NCBI GenBank assembly: GCA_025786725.1
Contig: JAHLTZ010000049.1
Span: 1-64,000, forward strand
Direction: 5' to 3'
DNA from: Syncephalis fuscata
Lineage: Eukaryota; Zoopagomycota; Zoopagomycetes; Zoopagales; Piptocephalidaceae
Length of the DNA: 64,000 bases
Shown here: positions 9,792 to 54,115 of the stretch, one piece after another
Layout: every line of letters starts with the position of its first letter
Numbering within the stretch: position 1 is the stretch's first letter
Notes under the pieces: model-generated
Told to the model about the DNA's origin: nothing
The model's input: only the letters and a program-made list of their open reading frames with translations
Databases searched by the model: none
Program-made: the position numbers and the translations under genes

Positions 9792-10059
9792 ATTGTGCAA
9801 TAAAAAAACTGATACGTCAGCCAGCTAGTCCATCTAGCTCTTGGTCCTTTATTAGTAATCCGGTCACACATAACGGCATTGTTGTTCCGTTCTATATATA
9901 AATATAGAATTTAATCTGAGATACCAACAGAGACAGCGTTAATTATATTCTTTAGAGTATTATTAAATAAATAATTTTTAGTGGTTAAATAACCTTTATT
10001 TTTTAGTACATTCTATATTATACCGACTTGGTGGTGCGATCAACGTTTGTTATCTACGT

Positions 10060-10931
10060 TCCATTTATTACTAAATTAAACTCGCGTCTTTATAAATATT
10101 GACTGGCAGGGATCATAGTTCACAATCTACGTCATCACATTTTCTTTCTCTTTCTTTACACTTGACAGCATATATCCATTGCATATACTTGTACACTCCA
10201 TATATACTAATTAGATAGTGTCAGTAGTTAGTCAGCTACTAGTCAACTACAAACACTATTTACACTATGTACTTGCATTGCTTTTTTATATTTACCTTCA
10301 TCACTCTGATAATTGTTTTTGACAACTTCTTTGACACGATAAGTACATTCTGGCTTTTTTTATGTTATATTGAATATATAACTGTCAAAAGCTCGCTGTA
10401 TACTTTGTTTTTGCTATGGACTGTCATTGCGGGTTATTTGACAATAACCTTCAATCTCAACAGTGATAGTGTGTTTTGCTGCTGTCGAGACTGTACACAC
10501 TGAGGTCAAAACAATTTGCAGTAGCAATCTATGGCAGGCAAAACATACAGTGGCCTTGGTGGCATGTAGTCACCAGTTACTGCGTACATCTGCTGTACAC
10601 ATACAGTAGTAATAGTATAGAAAGCACTGCTATTATAGTCACAGAATAAGTTTTTAGTGTTGGTGCAGTAGTGTGATTTACCACTCCTACCACTGCCATA
10701 TATGCACAGCTACTGCACGATGACTATATTGCTTATATACTTTGTTAACTTTCCAACAATAGAATGATATGCAATAATAAATATAAAATAGTAATGACAT
10801 GTATGAATAGAGGATATATGCATACTGGATAATAATCTACAATGATGAGTATTTTGATAATTGGTGTCATTCACCACTCATCACCATGTTCAATAGACTG
10901 AACATTATTAAATGTAGCCATTTGACCATCA
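10060..10931 (+). repeat. Gene-like dispersed repeat, copy 1 (left side of SLA2)
   Basis: Starts near TTTATAAATATTGACTGGCAG, a TATA-box-like block, followed by ACAATCTACGTCATCACATT, a CT-rich tract, GACAGCATATATCCATTGCA and a TAGATAGTGTCAGTAGTTA block. The same ordered blocks recur at about 27045 and 32380 (plus) and in reverse at about 40250-40110. It carries a 78-residue hydrophobic frame (10267-10503) that is only partly kept in other copies. The unit may be a retrotransposed or amplified small gene or an LTR-like element; type is unresolved. Confidence 0.7.
10422..10931 (+). repeat. Left arm of inverted repeat flanking SLA2
   Basis: Reading the reverse complement of 15657-16173 reproduces this segment almost base for base, for example GGTTATTTGACAATAACCTT, TGAGGTCAAAACAATTTGCA and CACTCATCACCATGTTCAAT. 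Only scattered substitutions and a few one- or two-base gaps were noted. The arm is the 3' part of repeat copy 1 and points toward SLA2. Confidence 0.9.
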
Positions 10932-25123: not shown

Positions 25124-27009
25124 AGTAGCACTAATGAATTGAGCTCAACTCCACAGAAACAAAATAAAGGACAAAACAAACGTCAAAAATAGTAGGACCA
25201 AGCGTATGGTTTAACAAGCAAAATAAAAGTCGTTCCACGTTCCGGTCGTACTACTTTTATTTGTGATATGTGGTAAATAGCCGAAAGCTACAGTAAAAAC
25301 GTGAATAGAACGTTAGTCAAGGAGAAAGAACGCGGCAGTAGTTGTTGACATCAAACAATAAAAGAAAATCAAAGAGTGCGGGCCTATTTGTCGGTAAGTT
25401 GGAGGTTTTAGAATCCGCTCTGCTTCGGCTGCTATTTGTAGATATAGAACATCTTCCCCACAAGGACTACAGGTCACATTGAATCACGTGGGTCGAAAAC
25501 AGCGCCTTCCTTTAATTATCAGTGCTAAGACCAGGCCTTTTTGGCAAATTCTATTTCTTATTGCATTGTTCAACAATGTGGACTTGCTTTCTCTTATCAC
25601 GGAACGATAATCTTTTGGATAAGGAGCATTGTAGAATTTAGGTATAACGTGCAACTAGCATCAATGTGCAATCGTGCATAATGCTAACGCAATTGCATAT
25701 CAACGATAAACCATTCCGATAGTCTATTGTCCAATTATAGGTATGCGTCAGTTAGCATAGATGATTAGTTAATTTAATAATAAAAAGGAGCTATTGTACC
25801 TTGACTCACTATCCTTAAACTGAAGGATAAAAAGATCAATAGCCGAATGATAAACTGTCGATCAGTTTTTACTACTGAGAAGGGTTTGTTGGTGCAGTGT
25901 CATAGCAACCCCGATTGAATCAATTGAGTCTTAATTAATCTGCACTATTTTCAATATCCAATATTGGTGTTAATAAATAGTATAGTATTTCATGCTACTT
26001 ACAATAATATAATAAATAGATAAATGTTAATCCATATTATTGTTGCTGTAAAGTATTCAAAGCATTATAATTTGATGTTTAATGTCACTCACCACCCAGC
26101 TCCATGTTCAGTAGAACAACAAACGTGTAGCTCAATCAATAAAACATGTCAATTTTATCTTTTGACACTAAATCACATAAGTCTACTAATAAATTAATCC
26201 AATATTAGTAAGCTATTTTACTTTTACTCTGACATTTTTATTTATCCATTTCACCCCTTAACACTTTTAAATACAATTAAACACTCACGCATCACTATAA
26301 CATGTATAGTATTGCATCCAACATTAATCAACTCATGTGTAATTATCAATACAATAACGTAATTAAATATGCACAAAATGCAATACTAGAAAATTGGAAA
26401 ATGAAACAGACCATTCAAACGCAAGAATTCATGCTGTACGTAGATGCAATGACTGCGGAACGATATGAATCACAATTATATGGTTTCTATTGATATTCGT
26501 CAATCTTTCTACACATGGCCAACAATAATAATCGTCTCAAATGTTCCAAATAAATCAAATAGTATGTTACATTGTTTATTTAAATCAGTTTATTACAATA
26601 TTTTAATAGAAAGTAACATAACTATGTTGCGTATACAACGACATGAGTCTAATTGAAATGAATTGTGCTTTGGGACAGATGTAAAAGCTAAAGTAAAGTT
26701 CAATTAACTATATAGTGTAATTTAGCGCTAAACGACTACATTAAATAATATTAGTTTATTGAACTATACCTTCATTTTATTAAACATGAATCTGATGATA
26801 AGTGACATCAGTTATTAAATATTCTTTTTATAGAATTATGATATACTGGTATTTGATACCAAATATTTTTATTCTTTTAATTGATCTTTTAATATACTGA
26901 ATATGTTCTATATAATGAGTAGTTTTGGTGTCAAATGACCTTTATTCTTAATGCATATTGCTTCACTTGTTGTTCTATGATGTACGACATGTTGGGTAGA
27001 TTGGCTTTT
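25124..27009. other. Gene-poor AT-rich region with repeat fragments
   Basis: Mostly non-coding. Near 26030-26120 there is a fragment matching the 3' end of the dispersed repeat (CACTCACCACCCAGCTCCATGTTCA). Two overlapping 63-residue frames (26302-26493 and 26465-26656) have no family resemblance and are not called. The first 350 bases upstream of the START gene may contain its promoter. Confidence 0.5.
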
Positions 27010-27600
27010 ATTATTTACACTCCATTTATTAATCAATTAAACTAGCTGTTTATAAATATTAACTGACAGGGATCACATCTCACAATCTACATCATCACAT
27101 TTCCTTTCTCTTTCTTACACTTGACAGCATATATCTATTGCATATACTTGTACACTCTATATATGCTATTTACTTTATGTCCTTGCATTGCTCTTTTGTA
27201 ATCTGACCTTTTTACAAAGCATCTTTTCACTTCAATCATTGATATTGGCACTTTATTGACATGTTAAGTGCATTTCTGGCTTTGTTTATGCTATGTTAAA
27301 TAAGCGCCGTGCAAATCTCGTTGTATGCTTTGTTTTGCTATGGGTCGCCATTACAGGTCATCTGACAACGCTTTGCAATCTCAACAAAGGCAGTGTGGTT
27401 TACTACTATCGAGACGGACAGGCTGCTGTTAGCACGATTCATAGTGCAATCTATAGCAAAACTAAAGCATGCAATGACTTTGGCAACATGATTGCTGTAT
27501 TAGCTGTATGTCCTGTTCCCTCTCCGCTGATTGTCTTATTCTTTGCTCTTTCCAACTCGAACAATCTCACTCATCAGTACTTTTTCTAAGCATTGTTGTT
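27010..27600 (+). repeat. Gene-like dispersed repeat, copy 2
   Basis: Begins with the block TTTATAAATATTAACTGACAG, then ACAATCTACATCATCACATT, a CT-rich tract, GACAGCATATATCTATTGCA and TGTCCTTGCATTGCTCTTTT, the same order as in copy 1. The central part aligns with copies 1 and 3 (CAATCTCAACAAAGGCAGTG). It carries a 98-residue frame (27293-27589) that differs in start and sequence from the frame of copy 1, arguing against a strictly conserved product. The segment TATAGTGTCAG seen in copies 1 and 3 is missing here. Confidence 0.7.
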
Positions 27601-29391: not shown

Positions 29392-30995
29392 GATGATAAT
29401 GTTCGTAAGTTTGAAAGTTGTGTGTAACATTCGTGAGTTTAGTTGGTTGATCAGACTAGCTGTAATCAATGGCGTAAAGATAATGGCGTAAAGATGATGG
29501 CGTAATTCGTTGCAGAAGCTGTTGCTTTGAGGTGCTGGATCAATCATTGGCCATATACACCGCCGAGTATTTATATTCAGTATTATATTGACAAATGCTA
29601 AAATATGTTTCATGATTATAACCATGACCAAGGGTGTTCTTTTTTAGGTCTTGAATGATGGAATAAACAGCATCTCCAAGCACACCATGCTAAAACATAC
29701 CTGTCCTTAATGGCTCTTACTTTGTGTTTCATGTAGTAACCAACTATCCCATTTTTATCAAAATCGCACCTTCTATGCATTATGTCGCTACAATTTGCCA
29801 ACTATACTTGTATGCTATAAATTGTTTTTATTCTTAAAAAAAGTGATTTGTTAACAAATATACCAGCACACCGATTAATGTGCTATATTGCAGAACTGAT
29901 TTTACTGATTATAGCACACTGCATGTTTCATATTCTTGCACGATACAAGTTTGTGCTTGCTTTATTGCATCAAAGTTTTGACCCAACCTTTGCGGTACTA
30001 ATTTGAAGTTTCATGCACTGCCGTATTACCGATTATAATCTGTGATTTCATTGCACCAGCGATAAGGCCAAGACCCATAAAAACTTTTGATTGTTTGGTA
30101 CAATATCGCTATAACTCATGATATCGATTTAATGAAGTCGTACTTATTATGTATATATCAGTCCAAGGCGTTGTAGTAGACCAGCAGGCAAATGATTGGA
30201 TAATAAATCAATGCTGCTATAAATACGAACGCTTCACGTGCAATGCAAACACAATGCTGCTAGCAACTACAGCGAATCCAATTGTTAAACATGCCAAACT
30301 TGAACATCAAATTGACAAAACGTGCTAATGTTTCAATTTTTGTCTACAATTTGCCTGCTGATAAACCATATTGCATAATTTATCGTATTGTAGGCATAAA
30401 CCACGGCTATACAAGTAGTAGAGATAAATGATTTATTAATACTTGTGCTGGAGAACTAACAAAAAACCTTACTTGCATTACCGAGAATAATAAAAAAAAT
30501 AGTCTTAAACATATCATCGATAGTGCCGCCAAAAACTTCAATCGATACGCTTCTGTCATAAAGTATCTATATTTAATAGCTGCACTGTCAATATTCTATT
30601 TACACATTGTGCTCATCGTTAATATCAAACAGCTTTTGACAGTTGGCAATCAAATCGGCAATACTCAACTACAAACAGAAATGCCAGCAGCACATTCAAC
30701 TGTAGATCCTCATTTCAAATAATAGCTACACTGGTGATGTTAATGTTCTGGCACAATGTGTAATAGTCATGAGCATTGTAAAATGACAGTATCGGTTATT
30801 GTTACTACAGATGCACATTATAAAATTTGGTATTTAATATTTCTAATAACTATGCCATCCTAACTTGTAATATTTGTTATTTCTAATGGCTATAGCAAAC
30901 TCGAAATGTGCCATTTGTGTTTTAATACCTATTACCATCATAAAATGTGAATTAAAAACAATAGTAATCGTTTAATTAATAAAATGCTAAAGCTA
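29392..30995. other. AT-rich non-coding stretch
   Basis: Upstream region of the CAP gene followed by long AT-rich DNA with no plausible frame. A short hairpin (AGCACACCGATTAATGTGCT) lies near 29865. No known repeat except the palindrome that begins at 30996. Confidence 0.4.
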
Positions 30996-31790
30996 CGTAT
31001 AACTTTACGTATAATAAAGCAAATTGCTTGATATTTTGCACAAGTGTGCGTATAACATGTAAGTAGCTACTGGCAACGTATACCGTTATTGTATTGTGTG
31101 ATGGTGTAATAATTATAATAATACGCTAATAAATGTGCAAAAATGGCAGTTTTTAGTCATTTATGGCTTGTATAAACAAACTACAGCAAAATGATTGCCA
31201 GATTCGAGTTCCCCGTGCTTGGCTGTATCGTTTGGTATGACTTATAGAACAATGATTTTTGCAAAAAAATTAACCAAAAATACGATTTACGTAAATATTT
31301 ATTAACAAAAAGATGATTAAACTTTATGATTTCAAAATTAATATTAAAAATTAAATGAAATTAAATAAATTTGAAACTCTCTAAAATACTATAACAACCA
31401 CAATAACAAGTTAATATGAACAAATACCGATATACAGTGGTAATCTATGCTATTGATATACATATAGCTTAAATTTTTGTTAACTATTTACACGTAAATT
31501 GTATTTTTGGCTAACATTTTTTGCAAAAATAATTGCTCTATAAGTCATACCAAACGATACAGCCAAGCACGGGGAACTCGAATCTGGCAATCATTTTGCT
31601 GTATTTTGTTTATACAAGCCATAAATGACTAAAAACTGCCATTTTTGCACATTTATTAGTGTATTATTATAATTATTACACCATCACACGATACAATAAC
31701 GATATACGTTGCCAGTAGCTACTTACATGTTATACGCACACTTGTGCAAAATATCAAGCAATTTGCTTTATTATACATGAAGTTATACTT
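30996..31790. repeat. Large palindrome (fold-back repeat)
   Basis: Arms of about 316 bases (30996-31311 and 31474-31790) are reverse complements with few changes. Shared blocks include CAAATTGCTTGATATTTTGC, ACATGTAAGTAGCTACTGGC, GTTCCCCGTGCTTGGCTGTA and TTACGTAAATA-like ends, separated by a roughly 160-base AT-rich centre. There is no coding capacity. A third, diverged copy is at 438-735. It resembles a non-autonomous fold-back element or two repeats inserted head to head; the mechanism is not decidable from one locus. Confidence 0.9.
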
Positions 31791-32349
31791 AGTATTGTTA
31801 CAACACCAGTAATGTGATGATGTAACGTTGATTAAGCAATCAGGGGAAGAAAGGAAACCAAACAATGTAATTTATTCAAATATTATAATAATAATTCAAT
31901 AAAGTAATTGCTATAAATATTATGTAACTTTAACCTTTAATGGCAGCTCAAATCAGTAGAGTTATAACAGAAGCTGCAACTGTATAATTATGACAATAAC
32001 TATAATAAATAATAAAATTTATATTTATTGTAATTTGGCCAACAGTATTACGTATTTATAATATTGCCGGAGCTCTAATGAAAGCACATAGCATAGAATG
32101 TGTTATAAGAGTGAATGTAGTCACAATAAATGCAACGAAGCTTAATTAAAATTCCGTTGATTTATGTAATTTAGCAAATAATAACAGTATTTTAGCGCTC
32201 TACTAATTAATTATTATTGCTTTTAACTTAAATACCCTGTATTCTATCATTTAACTACATTAAATTGCATTTTACTAATATTATATATTGCTATAGTATT
32301 GACGCGTTATTTCCCGTTTAAATCTGTAAAATAGCATTATTTATATTTC
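31791..32349. other. AT-rich non-coding stretch
   Basis: Lies between the palindrome and dispersed-repeat copy 3. No frames or structures worth calling. Confidence 0.4.
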
Positions 32350-32870
32350 ATTTATTAATAATTAAACTTGGCTGTTTATAAATATTGACTGCAGGCTCAA
32401 TCTCACAATCTACGTCATCACATTTTCTTTTTTTTCTTTACACTTGACAGCATATATCATTGCATATACTTGTATACTCCATATATACATCTAAATAGTG
32501 TCAGTAGTTAACTACTAGTTAAATACAAACATTATTTACATACTCTCTTACATTGCTCTTTTGTGATCTTACCTTCATCACTCTAATCATTAGTATTAAT
32601 ATTCTTGGTGACATAGTAATGCATCTTTGACTTTGTTTTATGTTATATTGAATATGTAACTGTCAAAGCTCGCTGTATACTTTGTTTTTGCTATGGAATG
32701 TCATTGCAGGTTATCTGGCAATGACCTTCAATCTCAACAGTGGTAGTGTGTTCTGCTACTACAGAGATTTTGCAGTATTTTATTAGCACGATTTGCAATA
32801 AAGATCTATGACAAACTAACGAACACAGCAGTTTCGGCAACATGTAGACTGTATGCTATTCTAGATTTAT
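32350..32870 (+). repeat. Gene-like dispersed repeat, copy 3
   Basis: Same ordered blocks as copy 1: TTTATAAATATTGACTGCAG, ACAATCTACGTCATCACATT, GACAGCATATATCATTGCAT, ATAGTGTCAGTAGTTAAC, CTCGCTGTATACTTTGTTTT and CAATCTCAACAGTGGTAGTG. The reading frame is interrupted and the start codon region is changed to CATACTCTC, so this copy cannot make the 78-residue frame of copy 1. Confidence 0.75.
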
Positions 32871-35682: not shown

Positions 35683-36787
35683 ATTTGTTTTTTTGTTATT
35701 ATTTATTAGTATTTTCACAAATGTCGTAGCTAATATGCTATAATTAATATAACTAAAGCTTGAAGGAAGGAAGGCTTACCAGCATCTATGGTTTATCAGC
35801 AATAACCTGCGGCAAATATCGGATCGCCGCTGATTCAATATCCGCCACAGACTGATATGGTAAATTCAATTTCAGCACCAATACTATGTTCCAATTTCAC
35901 TAATCTTTAACAATTTTTTGTGTATGCACCTGTAATAGATGATAGTGTTATATAAATTGAATTAAACTAAATCGTATTCAAATTAAATACTGTAAATTTT
36001 ATGACAATTAACAACTAGACGTTTCATGGCATTGATAGGGACAAGGATTGGCAAGTTGTCACACCATATGTTGATTTATGATCAATACAGTGTAGACATG
36101 TATCAAAGTACTGGCATTTTGTATGTAGTTGTCAGCTAATATGTGGCCAAAATTGCTGACTCATATGGCCTTTACTTGCATAACATAATCAACGAGCGGT
36201 ATGTGCATAAATTGGATAAAGATTATCCGGCATTCCCTTTAAAAAAATAACATCCGACTAACCATCATGCGGTGCAATAGATCGCTCATGGAGTGTTGCT
36301 AGATCCACAAGTCTATTAGACATAGTATAACTAAGGCTTGAGCGAAGGAAGGCTGCACTGGCCACTTGCCGCATGATCATAGTAATGTGGTTTGCTATAA
36401 ATAAATCTTTTGAGTTAAAAGAAATATCAAGTGGATTGGTTTGTTAAGTATTTTGGTATGCACAACCAGCTCTCTTCTATTTGTTATTGAACCTATAACA
36501 TTCCTCCTTTAAATCGAGATATTTAAAGCAGCAGTATCAAGCAAATGTACTACTTTCTATTAGCTATTTGTTATTATTCCTTTCTCAACACTTTGTGCTC
36601 GCTTTTTGTATAACTTTAATCATCTTCAGCAAATATTCTATTGTTTCTGTTTATTATTAAGACGATTTAATAATACTGAATTATTGTAAAGTGTTTCTTG
36701 ACACCATCCTATTACTGCATTGATATCTATTAATTGTATTTGGCCAGCTGCCGGCTTTATTGCCAAGAATAAACAAAGCTAGCTATT
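35683..36787. other. Left end of inverted-repeat block and upstream region of the membrane protein
   Basis: Contains the 166-base repeat at 35775-35940. Short direct repeats flank it: ATAACTAAAGCTTGAAGG near 35743 and ATAACTAAGGCTTGAGCG near 36328, both followed by AAGGAAGGCT. From 36000 to 36330 the GC content rises slightly and short frames resemble decayed coding sequence, but no family is recognised. Confidence 0.45.
35775..35940 (+). repeat. 166-base inverted repeat, left copy
   Basis: CTTACCAGCATCTATGG through CACCTGTAATAGAT. The reverse complement of 42521-42686 matches this over its whole length with about three substitutions (for example AGCATC versus AACATC and AATCTTTAAC versus AATTTTTAAC). 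It contains GC-rich blocks (ACCTGCGGCAAATATCGGAT, CGCCGCTGATTCAATATCCG) unlike the surrounding AT-rich DNA. Confidence 0.92.
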
Positions 36788-38911: not shown

Positions 38912-39699
38912 ATTAGTACGTTTGATATTTTTAGCTAAATATGGGTATAAAAGACACAGCAAAGACAAAATGTTAATTGTAAAGTGCAGCGGGTATTCGT
39001 CAGCATTTTATGCAAGGCAATAGACCGACGAGTTCTCTTCAGTAAAATGAATGCGATGTGTGTAGATGGCCTGAATAGCCGTAAAGGCATTTGATTCGGC
39101 AATAGTTCTGCTAAAAAGGGGAACTCACCCATCCGCCTACTAACATGTGGATGTGCTTGTGGTTACACGGCAGTTCTATGCCGTTTTAACATTCAATGGG
39201 CTGTTTTCCAACTCTGTTTGGCATTGCTGTGACGCCGAATATTGGCCACCCGGCAATAGAACCACCTAATTACTGTAAATTACGTCATGTTGTGCACATA
39301 ACAACAGCATGGTTTCTATATATTGCTATTATTCACATGGAAGTAGCATTTTTAATAAGCAATTTCTATTTATTACTAAAACTTGTGCGGGGTTCACGTG
39401 TGTGGAGTATACACGTTTTAAGGGAGCACTGGCAAGTGATCAATGCCGAACAAGACTGCTTCGGTGCCTATATTTTTACCTATTCTTAAAAATACTATAA
39501 ACAGAGTTTCAAATCTATATTTGTATCGATTTATTTATTGGCATAAGTTTATCCTAATAACACGTGTATACATGAAAGAAAAGCTAAAAAACTGAATAAA
39601 GATTAAAATAATACTTTGAATACTTTACAACAATAAACACTATGTAATAATATTTATTTATTTACCTACTAATTATACTATAACAATAAATAATAATAA
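38912..39699. other. Intergenic region
   Basis: Upstream flank of the secreted-protein gene followed by AT-rich DNA. Frames of 60-100 residues at 39196-39500 overlap one another on the same strand and show no conserved features. Confidence 0.4.
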
Positions 39700-40270
39700 T
39701 GAATCTAATATTACTTATTGTTTATTATGATTTTTTCATATACATCCTAGTACACATGCTAGTATGTAACCTGTATGCAGTCATAACTTTTAGTACTACA
39801 TATAGCTACTACACTCATCGTGCTAGCAATTGCGCATATACAATAGTGGAAATATTAAAGCACTGCTGGTATAGCCGCTAATCAAGTCTTCAACGCCAAC
39901 ACAGCAGTGCGATATGTAATTGCGATCAATAGCAAATAAACAAAGTATAAAGCGATATTTTACAGTGTATGCTCGACATGACATAAAAACAAACCAGAAA
40001 TGCACTTACAGTCGCAACAAAGCTGCCAGTAGTAATGATCAGAGTAATGAAGATGATGTGTAAAAAAGGTCAGATTATAAAAAGTGACACAAATACATAG
40101 TATAGAAGGTGTTTGCACTTGACTAGTAGTCAGCCAACTACTGACACTATCTATGTAGTATATATAGTGTGTACAAGTATATGCAATGTATATATGCTAT
40201 CAAGTGTGAAGAGAGGAAAGTCTGGTGACGTAGATTGTATGTTATATTGTTAATATGAGTGAATTAATAA
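39700..40270 (-). repeat. Gene-like dispersed repeat, copy 4 (reversed)
   Basis: Read on the minus strand from about 40250: ACAATCTACGTCACCAG, a CT-rich tract, GATAGCATATATACATTGCA, CTTGTACACACTATATATAC, ATAGATAGTGTCAGTAGTTG and later TATCGCTTTATACTTTGTTT. These follow the order of copies 1-3 at lower identity. It lacks the TATAAATATTGACTG block at the start. The frame is decayed. Confidence 0.65.
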
Positions 40271-40530
40271 TGGTGTGAAAATAACATCATCAGAAATGTG
40301 AACAAATGAGATGTCATTTAATTTCCAAAAAACACTCATTATTGTAGAACAATTAAAAGCGATTACGTGATACAATGCCATCTTATGCATGATGTACTAA
40401 AAGAGGTAGTACTTTATGCTTTTTATAGCTTTTTTATATGTGGTACATATATATGATATACATTCATCTAAAATAAACGTACTCAATTATACCCATATTT
40501 TATTGCTTTATAACAAACAATATGTCTTAG

Positions 40531-42512
40531 AATACATGTTTGTTGCGCGTCAATTTTCTTAAATCAAGTATACGTAGTATTGGCTGGAAACAAGAGTATT
40601 TAACCCGTTTAGAATGTCTTGTTATCAATGCCAATACCATTGTCACGCATACCTATGCTTTTGCAAGGTACATATTTATAAAAGAACTTGGCTTAAATAA
40701 GGACTTTGATATTAAAACATATATAAGCCAGAGGTTTTTTAAACAAATATTTTTATTGTTAGTGGATTATTCTATTTGCAAAGGGGGGTTGAGTGATGAA
40801 ACCATCCGAATCAGAGAATTAATAGAACGTCGTTTGAATGAATACCTTGAATATACGAGTTACACACGCATAGAACTTAAATATGCCAGCAAAATAGCCG
40901 AATATAAAGCACAAAGATTGCAACTGCATATTTAAACAATGTGCAAGAACATTTTAATCAACAGTTTTGAAGAGTACTTAATCTTGTTTTGGATGTAAAA
41001 AAAGACAAGAATGAACTAGCAAAGTTTATGCGTGAAAAGAAATTTTCTAAGCAAGATATTAAATTTAACACTAAATTAAATATTATTGATCCGCCACAGT
41101 ATTGAGACAGCATTTTGCAAGTGGCAAACTTTGCAATATTGCTGAAAAGAATCCGCATGCCCATCAAATAATAAAGCCCGTACTTGATGCGTATCCAGAA
41201 AAGCACAAATCTGGTGGATAAAATTACAAGTTTAGCAAAGATTCGATTTACTATGATGTCAAGGCTCATCCAATTAATCATGTAAATGCCTACTTCAAGC
41301 TGGCCACCACCTGTGAGGCCAATTTTTCAAAAACATTTCAATGTTTTCCGATACGTACTTATGGGTACCATCCTATATGCAAATTGACACAGAAATACTG
41401 TGTCGCCATATATTGGATAAAATCCATGAGATTTTTCTAACAAGATGGACGCATGGGAGCAAATTGTTGATTTGAATAACAGAATATTTAAACGCAGCGG
41501 ACCTTTGGAAGATTCAATGCAATTCTATGACTCCATTCAAACAGATGGCGTAAGTGTTACAATAATTAAACAAAATAAAGACACCAAAAACAAATACAGC
41601 GCTGGTCATAAACGAAAAGATGCCGCACTATCTACCGAATTTCAATATATACATGGAATAAATAAAGAAGCTTTGACACAAACTGTCGGCAAGTGTGTGT
41701 TAATTGACCCGCACAGAAGAGATTTGATGAACTGCATGCATGAAAACAGTAAAAGTAATGATCGCAAAATTTTTAGATACACTTCCAACCAAAGGCACAA
41801 AGACATAAAAGACAAAAGATACAGAAGAATCATGGAAACCTAATGAGAGAAAAGCTTACTGTTCAAAATGATGAAAAAGATTTATCTAATAACTTGACTG
41901 CTCAAAAGAACGATAAAAAAGTATTTGATTTGTTACCTGTTCAAAAGGCTAGAACAATTTATCCATTTATTCGTGTAAATCGGTTTATTTGGAAAAGTAT
42001 ATCGTGTATATTTCTGCTCGTGCAGAAGCCGCTGTTACTCTGGTTCCATATTATAGCACCAAAAGAACCAATCATTCGCAATCAAATAATTCTTTATTTA
42101 AAAAGCTTAAATTATTGGCTTATATCAGAAAACTGCAAGCTGATCAAAAACTGGTAAAAAGATTGAAAGACAAGTTTGGACAGGATACTGTGTTGATTTT
42201 TAATAATTGTTCTGCTTGCAATGTACAATTTCAAGGGCCTATTCGAGGCATTGGCATAAAAGAAATGCTTTAGAAAAATGGATTTGAAATTTTTTTATTG
42301 ATGAGTACAATACATCCAAGACTTGTCCATCTTGTGGAAATTGTACTTTGGAAACATTTCATAAGGTTGTCAATACTTGCCTTATTCAAGACAAAAAGGG
42401 CCAGCTTTTATTTGTTCCAAACTCTTAAAACGATATAAAAAAGGTCAATGGTTACATGTCATGAGCTATTAAAGTGCATAATTTGGATATAGTATATTTG
42501 ATTCATCTAACA
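40531..42512 (+). pseudogene. Decayed Fanzor (eukaryotic TnpB-like RNA-guided nuclease)
   Basis: Fanzor proteins are transposon-encoded RuvC nucleases guided by an omega RNA. Collinear fragments in shifting frames: LTRLECLVINANTIVTHTYAF and RFFKQIFLLLVD (helical N terminus), VQEHFNQQ, LNLVLDVKKDKNELAKFM, HPINHVNAYFKLATTCEANF, FQCFPIRT, WVPSYMQIDTEILCRHILD, then a 132-codon open frame with FYDSIQTDGVSVTII and the RuvC-I-like LIDPHRRDLMNCM, then NCSACNVQFQGPIRGIGIKE (RuvC-II region), DEYNTSKTCPSC (zinc-finger start) and CHELLKCIIW (zinc-finger end). At least eight frame changes or stops occur. The final RuvC-III aspartate segment (WNRD-like) is not seen; coding resemblance stops about 10 bases before the right inverted repeat. 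Some breaks may be base-calling errors, but the missing C terminus suggests true inactivation. Confidence 0.82.
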
Positions 42513-42520
42513 TTATTGTA

Positions 42521-42686
42521 ATTTATTACAGGTGCATACACAAAAAATTGTTAAAAATTAGTGAAATTGGAACATAGTATTGGTGCTGAAATTGAATTTA
42601 CCATATCAGTCTGTGGCGGATATTGAATCAGCGGCGATCCGATATTTGCCGCAGGTTATTGCTGATAAACCATAGATGTTGGTAAG
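42521..42686 (-). repeat. 166-base inverted repeat, right copy
   Basis: Reverse complement of 35775-35940 with about three substitutions. It begins directly after the Fanzor relic. In known Fanzor elements the guide (omega) RNA is transcribed from the region at the 3' end of the gene and overlaps the element end, so this segment is a candidate for that RNA; this is inference only. Confidence 0.92.
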
Positions 42687-42922
42687 TTTATAAAAAGTCG
42701 CTATATATAATTTATTAAAATAAAATTATTCATTATTATAAATGCACGTGATTGATCGTGTGGAAAAATGGCACTACCGATCGGCATAGCCATTGGCCGA
42801 TGACGCGGCAGTGCGTAATTTCTCGTTGCCGCTCCGTAGACGGACAGTAGCTTCTTTCTTTTAACATTATTGTTTGCACGTTTATTTGTTTAATAGTATA
42901 CAAAGATTACACATTGCCTGCC

Positions 42923-44085
42923 ATGGCCGACACTACAATTGACACAAAAAATGTTGCTGTCGCTTCACAGGAGGTAGCTGCTGCTGCCAATTCCACACTG
43001 GCCAACTCGGTCAAGTCATTTGTATCGGGTGGCTTTGGCGGTATGTGTCTTGTGGCTGCAGGCCATCCGCTCGATCTTATTAAGGTCCGCTTGCAAGCAT
43101 CGACGCAATATAGCGGTATGATGGACTGTGTTCGCAAGACGGTGGCCAAAGATGGCATACGTGGCCTCTATCGCGGCATGGCAGCTCCTCTGGTTGGTAT
43201 TACGCCCATCTACGCTGTCTGCTTCTGGGGCTACGACCTGGGTAAACGTCTATCACAAAAGTTCTATCATCAGGTATGTGCTATTGTTGGTTAAACACTG
43301 AATACAAACGATTAATAATGTGTGTGTATGTATGTGTGTATTAGGACGCTAGCGAGCCATTAACCATTGGCCAAATCTGCTTTGCGGGTGGATTTAGTGC
43401 ACTACCAGCTACTGTACTAATGACACCAATTGAACGTGTCAAATGCATTATCCAGATCCAATCTACACTGCCTGATAGTCAAGCCAAATACGCTGGGCCA
43501 ATGGATGCGGCGAAAGGCATCTGGCGCGAATCAGGTATTCGTGGCCTATACAAGGGCACGACCGCCACACTGCTACGTGATGGTCCAGGCAGTGTAGCTT
43601 ATTTTGGCGCATATGAATTCTTCAAAAAAACTTTTACACCAGCTGGAAAAGGTCCTGCAGATTTAAGTCCCGTGGCCGTATTTTGCGCTGGTGGTCTAGC
43701 TGGCATGGCCAACTGGTCGGTCGCTATTGTAAGTCATTATTTAAATAACGCCAATCACTAATCTAACACACTCATTTATTAATCGTTAATCTAATACGCA
43801 ATCTATTTATTATATATAGCCGGCTGATGTATTAAAGTCTCGTCAACAAACGGCACCGCCTGGCACCTACACCGGCCTTACCGATGTATTTGTAAAATTG
43901 ATACGCAATGAAGGACCCAAGGCATTGTTCCGTGGTTTAGGCCCAGCAATGTTGCGTGCTTTCCCGGCAAATGCAGCCTGCTTCCTTGGTACGTATATTT
44001 GAAATAGGATGTGTGTTAATCAATACTGATTTGCGTAATTTTAGGTGTTGAAGTCTCACTCAAAGTGATTAATTCCGTTTTCTAA
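42923..44085 (+). CDS. CRC1: Mitochondrial carnitine/acylcarnitine carrier
   Basis: SLC25-family inner-membrane antiporter that exchanges cytosolic acylcarnitine for matrix carnitine. Four exons. Three mitochondrial-carrier repeats: the first with [12 protein letters not shown], the second with [13 protein letters not shown], the third with [17 protein letters not shown]. The last of these, together with [15 protein letters not shown] near the C terminus, is characteristic of the carnitine carrier subgroup. ATG at 42923 is chosen; a TTG codon lies in frame nine bases upstream. Total length is about 300 residues, normal for carriers. No frame errors noted. It follows the Fanzor block by about 240 bases. 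Confidence 0.93.
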
Positions 44086-49376: not shown

Positions 49377-51070
49377 GATATATATATAAAAGAATGAACT
49401 AGGAGAAGAAGAAAATGTAGTAGCAATGGCTGTAGTCAAGACTGGGAACATTACAGAACTGCTTTGATGCATGTGAAACCAAATTGGTCCATATTAAGCT
49501 GTATGCCCAACTTGAAGTTTCTTAGTTATATTTCTATTGGCACTGAGAACGTGCTTTTAATACTATATCCATACATATTTATTCCTATTTTGTACAACAT
49601 TGTCTTTATTGATATGCAATAAATATTTAAATCATATATTGGTATTTCTATTACTCTGTTACTCCTTTTAACCATTGATTGGTATCTAATGTACCAGCGT
49701 TACTGTTTTATAATTCCGCACAGGGTCTTGTGAAAGTGTGACCAAGAAATATATTGTGTAATCAATCACAAGAATAATATATCTATTGGATATTAGTACC
49801 GATTACTAGTAACAAATGCCTATTACGACAATATGACGAGTAGCTACTTGTTAGTTGTGAGCATATGAGCAGTCACCTGAACTAATATGCTGCATTAATG
49901 ATGAAATACTACAAGGCACTCAAGTTTTATTATTAGTTGTGTTTACTATATAATGATAGCTTTATTCAATATCAATAAAGGAATAATCAAGTTTCTAGTC
50001 CACTATTATTTCTACTTAGTGTCATACAAGTTATTCAGTTTATTATAGTTAAACTGTGGTAATTAATGACCAATAAGAAATAATTTATTATAAAAGCAAT
50101 ACAACCAAACAACACATTGTATTCTGAGCGTTAAGGTAAGCGTTAATAAGCATCAGAAATTAACGTTATAGGATAGCGACAGGATAAGTGTTGCTTGGTC
50201 ATCTAAGTTGCGATTTCTAAAACTAGAAGCGTAACACCAGCTTTAGCGTTTAAAAGAATACACTGAAATGTTATAATTATAATTCATTTGATTAGCACAA
50301 ATAGTCACTATTTAGCTTTATTTAGTTAAGAAAACTAAGCTGCTTTAAACTAATATGTGTTCAATTATTTATTATAATGGTTTATTTATAATAGCTAGAA
50401 TGTTGAGTCCAATTGGTACCACAAGCGCAAATATTCAATAATCAACAATTCCTTAAATTACCAGCTACTATTATTGATTTGAATCAAAGCATTGTATTGT
50501 AAATCATATATCAATAATCCTCAAATTACTTAACTAATCTAATAGTATTTAAAATTTACTAAGAAAATATAAAGTGTCAGTCATAAATGGCTAAATAACG
50601 ACATAGTGTTCGTTGATGCCAGACATCAGTTCAAGTACTCAAAACTGGTTATAAATAATAATGATTAAAACAAACAATGGCTTAATTATTTATTTCGAAA
50701 AACTGGAAAAAACAAAGAATGTACACGATTCACTAAACAACCTTATTGGATGGATTAGTATGCGATGTAACATTTACAAAACAAAACAAAGAACTGTCTG
50801 GGTAATAACCTGTTATCCACAACACCACACAGCCTGTACCCATAACTATACGGGTCGAATACCTTTTTTATATTGTTTTAATATCTAATTCTAGCAATAC
50901 TGCGTTTCAATATTTGTAATTTTATATAGATACGCGCTAATAAAAATACCATTTATTTGAAACACGAATTTGATCTGGGTAACAAATCGCCTGTATACTG
51001 ACCCATTTACTCGCAGTTCATTATTTTTGTCTATACATGCTCTCTTTGTCAGTATTCTTTGGACCAACGC
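49377..51070. other. Long AT-rich intergenic region
   Basis: No gene recognised. From about 50780 to 51000 it shows interrupted similarity to 52290-52420, the corresponding region upstream of the second CAP gene (AATAACCTGTTAT, CACACAGCC/CACACAGGC, ATTCTAGCAA), evidence that the tandem duplication once covered more than the now-identical block. Confidence 0.5.
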
Positions 51071-51086
51071 TAAAACATCAGCAGCA

Positions 51087-51094
51087 TATAAATA
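51087..51094 (+). promoter_or_regulatory. TATA box of CAP gene 1
   Basis: TATAAATA about 180 bases upstream of the ATG, followed by a CA-rich leader (CATCATCACAACAACTC). The same box, identically placed, is at 52577-52584. The long leader suggests transcription starts about 30-60 bases after the box. Confidence 0.6.
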
Positions 51095-51269
51095 TCGACT
51101 AATTTTATAGCTTAGTTTTTGTTCATCATCACAACAACTCTTCTACACTCAAACACTAAACGATTCAGCTATACTTGTTACAGCTAGACTGGCAAGAATA
51201 CTCTACGCTCTTAAACACGCTACAAACTATCAAATTGGCCAATCTTTTATAAATACTATCAAAATTATC

Positions 51270-51857
51270 ATGAAATTCTTCATTGTTCTTGCTGCCACCG
51301 CTCTCTTGGCCATTGGTATCGCCAACACTGATGCCGCTTCATCTAGTGTTAGAACACCTGTCGGCAATGCTAATGTCAACACAGGCAGTCGGCCTGCTTC
51401 TAAGCCCGCTTCGCGGCCTAGCTCTGCTCCCCAACCTGCACTCGACACCAAGTCCATGGAAGTGCAAATGCTATGTGCAGTTAACAAGTTCCGCTCCAAG
51501 TATGGCCTTCAGCCATTGGGTTTAGATCAAGGCTTAAATAGGGCTTCTCTGCAGCATAGCCAGGCACAGGCCAGCCGAAGACAAATGGAACACCGGTTTC
51601 CTGGTGGAACCACTCCAACTCAGCGTATGGATGCAGTTGGCAATTGGATGCGAACTGCCGAAAATATTGCTTATGGCTCGTCTACTGTGGAAGGGGTTAT
51701 GGATCAATGGATCAAATCACCCGGTCACAATGTAAACATGCGCTCTGATACTACTCACTTTGGTGCGGGTATGGCTAAGAGCTCAAATGGTACGCCATAC
51801 TGGACACAGAACTTTGGACAAGATCGTAACAAACCAAAGAACATTCCAAAATGCTAG
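51270..51857 (+). CDS. Secreted CAP/PR-1 (SCP/TAPS) protein, copy 1
   Basis: Intronless, 195 residues. The signal peptide (MKFFIVLAATALLAIGIA) is followed by a Ser/Pro/Ala-rich spacer (about 23-60) and a CAP domain: MLCAVNKFRSKYGLQPLGL (helix 1), LNRASLQHSQAQASRRQMEH with the CAP1 histidine, ENIAYGSSTVEGVMDQWI with the conserved glutamate, SPGHNVNM with the second histidine, HFGAGMA and YWTQNFGQ. CAP proteins are secreted and some bind sterols or act in host contact. Only the segment IAYGSSTVEG differs from copy 2. The third CAP gene at 28887-29391 has the same order of motifs. Confidence 0.92.
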   Translation: MKFFIVLAATALLAIGIANTDAASSSVRTPVGNANVNTGSRPASKPASRPSSAPQPALDTKSMEVQMLCAVNKFRSKYGLQPLGLDQGLNRASLQHSQAQASRRQMEHRFPGGTTPTQRMDAVGNWMRTAENIAYGSSTVEGVMDQWIKSPGHNVNMRSDTTHFGAGMAKSSNGTPYWTQNFGQDRNKPKNIPKC

Positions 51858-52007
51858 AAATACTCAACTTAGATTATGAATTGATTTCTGCTTTTACTGT
51901 AATTATATAGTAATTAGCTAATGCTGAAACATGAACATTATGACGAATATTTTTGAATAAACTTTTATGTTTGCCTATAAAAAGCTATCTGAGTTTGTAT
52001 TGTCACA

Positions 52008-52560
52008 ATAGAGTTATTAAAGATAAAAGTAATGCTGAAAATTAATATATAATTGAAATTACTTATTTAAGCTTATACTTAATGCTTTAATAAATAGCAA
52101 CTGGTTATTCTTTAATTAATCATGTGTATATTTGAATGTTATATATAAACTACTTTTAAATACTTAACGGAAAAATACATTTAATAGTATAGCTAGAATG
52201 CACAATAAAACCATCAATAATGTCAAACACAATCACGTAGTTACAACAAACATTCATTTATGGTGCAACAGCCACGTAACAAAGCAATAGATTGTTCAAT
52301 CAATAACCTGTTATTTACAATGCCACACAGGCTACGGCCATTGCTTGTATGCTTCAAATACTTTGTTTCAGTTTTAATTCTAGCAACATTGTCACTCAGA
52401 TCAAATTCGTGTTTCAAGAAAATAACATTTCTATTAAAGCACATCTATACAAAGTGCAAACAATGAAACACCATATTGTTTGTCCAACAATCTATTTGTT
52501 TTTAAAGCATTGTTCCTTTGCATAGCATGATCTTTTCTTTGTCATCGCTGAGCCAACAGC
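52008..52560. other. Spacer between the duplicated CAP blocks
   Basis: AT-rich, unique relative to copy 1 except for patchy similarity of 52290-52420 to 50800-51000. No coding feature. Confidence 0.5.
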
Positions 52561-52576
52561 TAAAACATCAGCAGCA

Positions 52577-52584
52577 TATAAATA
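52577..52584 (+). promoter_or_regulatory. TATA box of CAP gene 2
   Basis: TATAAATA at the same distance from its ATG as in copy 1; surrounding promoter and leader sequence are identical, so the two genes are probably co-expressed. Confidence 0.6.
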
Positions 52585-52759
52585 TCGACTAATTTTATAG
52601 CTTAGTTTTTGTTCATCATCACAACAACTCTTCTACACTCAAACACTAAACGATTCAGCTATACTTGTTACAGCTAGACTGGCAAGAATACTCTACGCTC
52701 TTAAACACGCTACAAACTATCAAATTGGCCAATCTTTTATAAATACTATCAAAATTATC

Positions 52760-53347
52760 ATGAAATTCTTCATTGTTCTTGCTGCCACCGCTCTCTTGGC
52801 CATTGGTATCGCCAACACTGATGCCGCTTCATCTAGTGTTAGAACACCTGTCGGCAATGCTAATGTCAACACAGGCAGTCGGCCTGCTTCTAAGCCCGCT
52901 TCGCGGCCTAGCTCTGCTCCCCAACCTGCACTCGACACCAAGTCCATGGAAGTGCAAATGCTATGTGCAGTTAACAAGTTCCGCTCCAAGTATGGCCTTC
53001 AGCCATTGGGTTTAGATCAAGGCTTAAATAGGGCTTCTCTGCAGCATAGCCAGGCACAGGCCAGCCGAAGACAAATGGAACACCGGTTTCCTGGTGGAAC
53101 CACTCCAACTCAGCGTATGGATGCAGTTGGCAATTGGATGCGAACTGCCGAAAATGTTGCTTATGGCTGGCCCTCTGTAGAAGTAGTTATGGATCAATGG
53201 ATCAAATCACCCGGTCACAATGTAAACATGCGCTCTGATACTACTCACTTTGGTGCGGGTATGGCTAAGAGCTCAAATGGTACGCCATACTGGACACAGA
53301 ACTTTGGACAAGATCGTAACAAACCAAAGAACATTCCAAAATGCTAG
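52760..53347 (+). CDS. Secreted CAP/PR-1 (SCP/TAPS) protein, copy 2
   Basis: 195 residues, identical to copy 1 except for five residues between positions about 133 and 142 (VAYGWPSVEV instead of IAYGSSTVEG). Same signal peptide, spacer, histidines, glutamate and YWTQNFG signature. Intact and intronless. The changed residues lie next to the conserved CAP glutamate, so they could alter the cleft rim; that is inference. Identical flanks on both sides argue for a recent duplication or for ongoing gene conversion. Confidence 0.92.
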   Translation: MKFFIVLAATALLAIGIANTDAASSSVRTPVGNANVNTGSRPASKPASRPSSAPQPALDTKSMEVQMLCAVNKFRSKYGLQPLGLDQGLNRASLQHSQAQASRRQMEHRFPGGTTPTQRMDAVGNWMRTAENVAYGWPSVEVVMDQWIKSPGHNVNMRSDTTHFGAGMAKSSNGTPYWTQNFGQDRNKPKNIPKC

Positions 53348-53497
53348 AAATACTCAACTTAGATTATGAATTGATTTCTGCTTTTACTGTAATTATATAG
53401 TAATTAGCTAATGCTGAAACATGAACATTATGACGAATATTTTTGAATAAACTTTTATGTTTGCCTATAAAAAGCTATCTGAGTTTGTATTGTCACA

Positions 53498-54115
53498 GTA
53501 GAGCTAATATAATGTAATAGAGCTTGATCAGATGATAATAAAATATTACTAGCATAAATAACAATGTTTTATTAAAAGATATGCACTTATGTATGTATTT
53601 ATATAAGCACACGTTATCCGTATATTTTGAATCTAGAAATATGTACATAGTTTAAAAACAGTAGTCAACAGACCTTTTAATCCAATTTATAAATATACGT
53701 TCATTCTCCATTTAAACAATAACATCAGCGATTTATTTAGTTAACAATGTACGTCTATATTATTATATACTACTCTATGGTATACTAGATACATTCCATT
53801 TATTATATAACTCAAGTATATAGTTTGATAAATGAAAGAGATAAAAGACTCAAAATGTATTTGTAATAAATATAGAGAAGAACAGAAACAGCTTTGGCTA
53901 AAGAAAGACTAAACGAGTATATAGTTGTATATAAGATAATAAATATAGTTAAATGTAGTTATTTTAATATATTAATATTTTCAAAAAAATTATGTCTAAT
54001 TAATAGGTGTGAGAAATGGCAATTATTCATTTATTTTCCATTAATAACACTACAACACTACAACACCATATTTTATCTATTATTGCTACTGTACTATTGT
54101 CATCGCCTTACAATC
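53498..54115. other. Intergenic region upstream of the Tls1 gene
   Basis: AT-rich; the only longer frame runs into the Tls1 start and is not coding upstream of the ATG at 54116. No recognised repeat. Confidence 0.45.

Follow-up and report, generated by a model that had tools for sequence, protein, structure and literature searches.

Published accounts already describe Fanzors present in hundreds of copies, ghost loci and Fanzors that are partial or degenerate (PMC10432273, PMC11423790, PMC3627910, PMC10711439, PMC6784888). The ghost Spu-1 loci of Spizellomyces punctatus are reported as short, gene-less repeats of ~550 nt that keep a Fanzor 3′ end, bear 30-nt inverted repeats and yield working guide RNAs (PMC10432273). 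PpFz1, the Fanzor1 of Parasitella parasitica (PDB 9cf0–9cf3), is an intact protein reported to have an FRI (cyclophilin-binding) insertion (PMC11423790). Continuous annotated Fanzor1 proteins of 679–793 aa (P0181, P0182, P0186 and P0189) are found in Syncephalis plumigaleata, and in the Helicostylum pulchrum Fanzor1 proteins the RuvC and zinc-ribbon blocks are largely continuous, with P0125 being without its C-terminus. In the literature searched, no paper mentions both Fanzor and either Syncephalis or Zoopagomycota.

Here we describe a locus from Syncephalis fuscata that can be compared with each of these systems. Within a 64,000-nucleotide stretch of contig JAHLTZ010000049.1 (termed the window), we found a feature that, judging from its sequence, is very probably an inactivated Fanzor1 gene, a eukaryotic relative of TnpB. 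The relic is an ordinary example of an already known kind. Like PpFz1, it carries RuvC-I, DEF/DEY and CHGLLRC blocks, and the two are collinearly homologous in three pieces (E 1.5e-23 to 8.8e-11); unlike PpFz1 and the largely continuous H. pulchrum proteins, it is broken, and it lacks the FRI of PpFz1. The S. plumigaleata proteins come from the same genus, but they are uninterrupted and fall with Mucor Fanzors in our tree, not beside the relic. As with the Spu-1 ghosts, the Fanzor 3′ end probably recurs in short gene-less repeats, here ~615 nt long. In contrast to those ghosts, neither inverted repeats nor RNA structure could be demonstrated here.

Collinear pieces along the locus

The plus strand between positions 40531 and 42425 encodes pieces of a single protein in three frames. 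A Fanzor profile, built like our tree from 62 of 117 relatives (each at least 480 aa; the 55 others were excluded as shorter), matches these pieces collinearly and in strict order over profile positions 102–687 of 780. The initial annotation had quoted fragments of a Fanzor nuclease relic, and these are indeed present in the plus-strand translation at the place and in the order given, with CHELLKC at 42457. Comparison with this Fanzor profile gave significant matches for the six main pieces (E 4.5e-48 to 2.2e-6), and the proposed identity was borne out and narrowed to Fanzor1 by matches to solved structures, by the extent of the profile match and by an alignment with 8gkh.

The N-terminal Fanzor1 piece (RVNFLKSSIRSIGW..., 40531–40932) has an open frame and matches PpFz1 at chain residues 511–640 (E 3.9e-20) and the profile at 102–226 (E 2.6e-36). 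It is followed by two short collinear pieces (40908–41102) that flank an in-frame stop at 40968 and match profile positions 223–240 (E 1.7e-4) and 243–283 (E 4.1e-4). The piece at 41123–41359, which has FQCFPIRT at its end and an in-frame stop at 41219, was recovered by tblastn with the S. plumigaleata Fanzor P0182; its profile match (322–367, E 8.7e-19) spans 41222–41437. In a shifted frame lies the WVPSYMQIDTEIL piece (41356–41430; profile 363–389, E 2.2e-6 over 41317–41472). The region from IQTDGVSV to RuvC-I (41430–41840) matches PpFz1 (E 1.5e-23), SpuFz1 (E 1.5e-8) and the profile (E 4.5e-48). The mid RuvC block ending in VLIFNNCSACNVQFQGPIRGIGIKEML (41953–42270; profile E 5.5e-31) aligns with PpFz1 residues 950–984 and then 1096–1153 (E 8.8e-11), passing over the FRI insertion. 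The first half of the TNB zinc ribbon, IDEYNTSKTCPSC, occupies 42288–42425 (profile 653–687, E 6.1e-9). The N-terminal and RuvC parts remain recognizable, as had been proposed, through the profile and PpFz1 matches to the N-terminal, RuvC-I and mid RuvC pieces.

When five pieces were searched singly against solved structures, PpFz1 was the best solved match for three. The zinc-ribbon piece (42288–42425) returned no Fanzor, its best match being a chain named Transposase (E 0.57), and the piece at 41317–41472 returned no match at all. Among the matches listed, chains named transposase or TnpB appeared only at E 0.57 and 2.4, both for the zinc-ribbon piece. In Pfam, the PF07282 zinc ribbon matched one of seven pieces (E 1.5e-4; 22.3 bits, below the curated cut-off of 26.3); otherwise only two weak, unrelated families were reported (E 0.024 and 0.088).

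Catalytic residues and zinc ribbon

The catalytic residues given for SpuFz1 are D383, E541 and D606 (PMC10432273, PMC11423790). The RuvC-I aspartate corresponding to D383 is kept (LIDPHRRD vs VIDPNKRD; codon GAC at 41706). The RuvC-II glutamate corresponding to E541 is also kept, as the E of DEYNTS (codon GAG at 42303). Through P0182 this glutamate aligns with the E of LLDEY, chain residue 935 of 8gkh, which equals E541 because the numbering is offset by 394 (D383 is chain residue 777). The RuvC-II region had been placed elsewhere in the initial annotation, and this alignment moves its catalytic glutamate to DEYNTS. No RD motif carrying the counterpart of D606 follows the zinc ribbon, and the window has no profile match past position 687. 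The missing RuvC-III motif is in keeping with the status of the locus as a relic. Of the C4 zinc ribbon that follows [TS][TS]xx (a motif taken from PMC3627910), the first half, TSKTCPSC, is present; the second half is damaged and is interrupted by a probable intron.

The right end of the relic

The sequence CHELLK (42457–42473, plus strand) is the counterpart of CHGLLR in intact relatives, according to the protein sequences and alignments. In six other relics of the lineage, an apparent intron lies directly after CHGLLR and before CTNQNC. The window carries GT...CTAAC...ACAG, which we take to be intron signals, after the same residue (alignments by eye). An intron therefore probably occupies about 42474–42531, and a degenerate last exon, holding the second zinc knuckle and a ruined RuvC-III, probably extends from 42532 to 42686. 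Sequence after 42532 resembles WNRD-LAAALNF only as ruins, with the RD motif gone (DNA alignment by eye). The exon is followed by a 3′ tail (42687–42763, plus strand) in common with locus L011, the last common base by eye being 42763; 42556–42763 is 83% identical to L011 (C24:713368–713567). Fanzor similarity thus probably continues past 42512 through the intron and the last exon.

It had been proposed that RuvC-III is cut off at a right inverted repeat. Instead, this segment is probably present beyond the intron but ruined, and the repeat (most likely 42451–42686) reflects this 3′ end being present twice, not a terminal repeat: it is 88% like 35775–36012 on the minus strand, a separate copy recognized by DNA similarity and alignments. 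The two have a 25-base deletion in common. Over 42531–42686, 154 of 156 bases agree with that copy; agreement falls to 59 of 90 columns on the upstream side and to 56 of 112 on the downstream side. This island of agreement is most simply explained by a local tract of gene conversion.

We also considered 42451–42763 as an unrelated repeat that the Fanzor ran into. This reading was dropped because an apparent intron at the same residue, with a similar exon start after it, recurs in six other relics, and because a C-terminal DNA profile matches L011, L017 and L012 in the right place and orientation (12.0, 8.8 and 6.2 bits; control maximum 4.3 in 343,018 reversed bases). L015 (4.7 bits) barely exceeded the control, neither L014 (4.1) nor the window (4.3) did so, and L010, L013 and L016 gave no match at the expected place. 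A larger C-terminal model, for which no control was run, matched L011 (E 7.5e-8) and L012 (E 2.8e-5), and the protein Fanzor profile had no match in any of L010–L017. A Fanzor-derived origin of 42451–42763 is probable on this sequence evidence.

A twin copy with the same lesions

The reading frame of the relic shifts at least four times, and stops break conserved blocks. A twin of the locus on another contig (C24:576543–578655) is 97% identical to window positions 40417–42544. When 39001–43500 was compared by blastn with the 5,113-base twin locus, a single match was obtained (40383–42544), and no similarity was found between the flanks. Stops are common to both copies at all seven positions checked, one being TGA in one copy and TAA in the other. 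The sequence was therefore dead before it was copied, and the common stops also speak against assembly error. The locus as it stands today cannot give a functional protein. Some stops that we counted as lesions might fall in unrecognized introns. An alignment of the twins has 77 differing columns, which are densest over the first 120 bases. RIP-like mutation between them was considered and set aside, as 24 C>T/G>A changes compared with 17 reverse transitions reveal no strong bias.

The 3′-end repeat family

This 3′ end also forms part of a ~615-base repeat, which occurs whole or in part at no fewer than 13 loci besides the window relic; 12 of the 13 counted extend past the exon start. This count was drawn from 43 rows, among the best 40 of 199 candidates scored, the remaining rows matching a different end or being second rows of the same loci. 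With three of eight loci tested clearly above the reversed-sequence control and one more barely so, we judge with moderate confidence that the repeat is Fanzor-derived. Together with the twin, these loci indicate past mobility or duplication.

No terminal inverted repeats were evident, in that the score between left and right ends was reached by 108 of 200 shuffles, and when the window stretch and five 3′-end-repeat loci were searched for inverted repeats, nothing recurred at the same place (by eye). The 3′-end RNA structure predicted from seven sequences has 17 pairs with one compensatory change (covariation term +0.7), and the window has no Rfam match at gathering thresholds.

On contig C278, loci L014 (~81 kb) and L015 (~71 kb) have 2.5 kb at 98.6% identity, ~9.5 kb apart, a recent duplication that takes in the 3′-end repeat. 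Two further copies of this repeat lie at ~133 and ~159 kb of the same contig.

Search for intact copies

Intact relatives had been expected elsewhere in the genome, and none was found. P0182 matched the S. fuscata genome 50 times at 26 loci; at each of the 26, one or more of the matches contain a stop. PF07282 identified 87 places, 26 of them above the cut-off, where the largest listed frame among rows without internal stops is 131 aa; the overall listed maximum is 168 aa, but this measure appears to read through stops (it is 635 for the broken pieces of the window). Inspection by eye of 20 of the 87 places with ~3.5 kb of upstream sequence revealed no Fanzor frame above 200 aa. None of nine Fanzors gave a tblastn match at these 20 loci, so their link to Fanzor comes from PF07282 and zinc-ribbon sequences alone. 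It is likely that S. fuscata has no intact copy, although introns could hide one. Of the 87 places, 30 cluster by DNA similarity into groups of 15, 7, 7 and 1. Three Fanzor or zinc-ribbon relics, L069, L070 and L068 (on C190, C35 and C231), adjoin subtilase-like coding sequence, which was recognized by PF00082 for L068 only, by PF06280 below its cut-off for L070 and by eye for L069.

Relatives and phylogeny

With the RuvC-I piece as query, four of 37 candidates passed, all from H. pulchrum (Mucorales; P0123–P0126, 41–42% identical). The Helicostylum alignment, used in turn as query, recovered at least 117 relatives among the best 8000 candidates scored. They are mostly from Mucorales, including Parasitella, with four from S. 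plumigaleata and several from Coemansia; the names are fungal or without an organism, and S. fuscata is absent from the names shown. When tblastn scores of nine Fanzors against the window were summed, P0182 was best (396 bits), followed by P0181 (377) and Parasitella (359). The margin of P0182 is small (396 vs 391 when this place is taken as a 5.5 kb cut), and a shorter cut of the twin (L002) reverses the ranking (Parasitella 346, P0182 333).

A FastTree phylogeny was built on 70 rows, made up of 62 relatives and eight S. fuscata loci, with L018 left out as too short at 21 columns. In it, the relic of the window groups with seven further relics from S. fuscata in a single clade (support 0.999). 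We do not claim a recent transfer of the relic from Mucorales: its clade is S. fuscata's own, and the position of that clade deeper in the tree has weak support (0.87 or not given). Separately, P0181, P0182, P0186 and P0189 of S. plumigaleata group with Mucor and Benjaminiella Fanzors (support 1.0), a sequence-based grouping that may point to transfer having taken place between Mucorales and mycoparasites.

Alternative explanations

The pieces might be exons of a domesticated Fanzor in a living, many-intron gene. One or more genuine intron positions probably lie near the zinc ribbon, both the RuvC-I D and RuvC-II E codons survive, and between the twins 41103–41942 has only seven substitutions and no indel, compared with six substitutions and three gap columns in 40983–41102. 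Against this, stops and shifts interrupt conserved blocks that are unbroken in intact relatives, private 1-base indels within coding blocks distinguish the two copies, and the last exon is without an intact RuvC-III, so that we regard a living gene as very unlikely. Derivation from Fanzor2 or a bacterial TnpB seems exceedingly improbable: a zinc ribbon and RuvC are described as common to all three groups (PMC3627910), but the best solved matches are Fanzor1 proteins and the relatives recovered have fungal names or none. Furthermore, the TnpB domain PF01385 (OrfB_IS605) had no match at E ≤ 1 across the S. fuscata genome, whereas the same search was positive in eight of 14 control genomes.

Contamination from a Mucorales host would account for the close Mucorales relatives, and related mycoparasites are reported to be cultured with their hosts (PMC6784888). 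Yet the twin and 24 further P0182-matched loci are spread across many assembly contigs, a protein on C235, a contig with another zinc-ribbon remnant, is 100% identical to an S. fuscata record, and the eight relics in the tree stand apart from the sampled Mucorales Fanzors. This origin is accordingly hard to credit, and we continue with an inactivated Fanzor1 gene of S. fuscata itself.

Surroundings of the relic

A mitochondrial carrier gene (42851–43758, PF00153 in two exons) has its probable start codon at 42923, only ~160 bases from the 3′ tail of the relic. Directly to the left, at 39915–40238, is a dispersed repeat that is a few hundred bases long and has copies at 10011–10536, 26973–27458 and 32336–32767 (70–84% identity); it also occurs in other zinc-ribbon or 3′-end-repeat loci (L065, L041, L059, L054 and L011). 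Elsewhere in the window, 800 bases (30993–31792) match their own reverse complement at 85.5%, forming a large foldback element. Near-identical 248-residue open frames lie in tandem at 51111–51857 and 52601–53347, inside 51043–52019 and 52536–53509 (98% DNA identity), and presumably resemble secreted CAP/PR-1 proteins.

Discussion

By analogy with characterized Fanzors, the intact product would have bound an RNA derived from the 3′ end of the element encoding it, and its RuvC site would have cut DNA of matching sequence beside a short target motif; such cutting may have helped the carrying element persist. The dead DNA was still duplicated afterwards, passively or by the enzymes of another element, because the 97% twin has the same stops and at least 13 loci carry the 3′-end repeat. 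A bolder and rather unlikely extension is that a whole Fanzor1 lineage is dead in this species, with the 3′ ends living on as this separate repeat family, some copies perhaps still being transcribed like guide RNAs and usable by another surviving RuvC nuclease or silencing remaining elements.

What is mildly new is the presence in Syncephalis of apparently dead Fanzor1 copies, together with a repeat that shares their 3′ end and occurs at no fewer than 13 loci. By comparison with the Spizellomyces ghost loci, this arrangement suggests that Fanzor 3′ ends may multiply without the protein. With S. fuscata, a zoopagomycotan mycoparasite is added to the organisms known to carry Fanzor1. The present searches revealed only wrecks in S. 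fuscata, whereas its congener S. plumigaleata has continuous annotated genes, so that gain, loss and transfer of Fanzor between mycoparasites and Mucorales could be studied in this setting.
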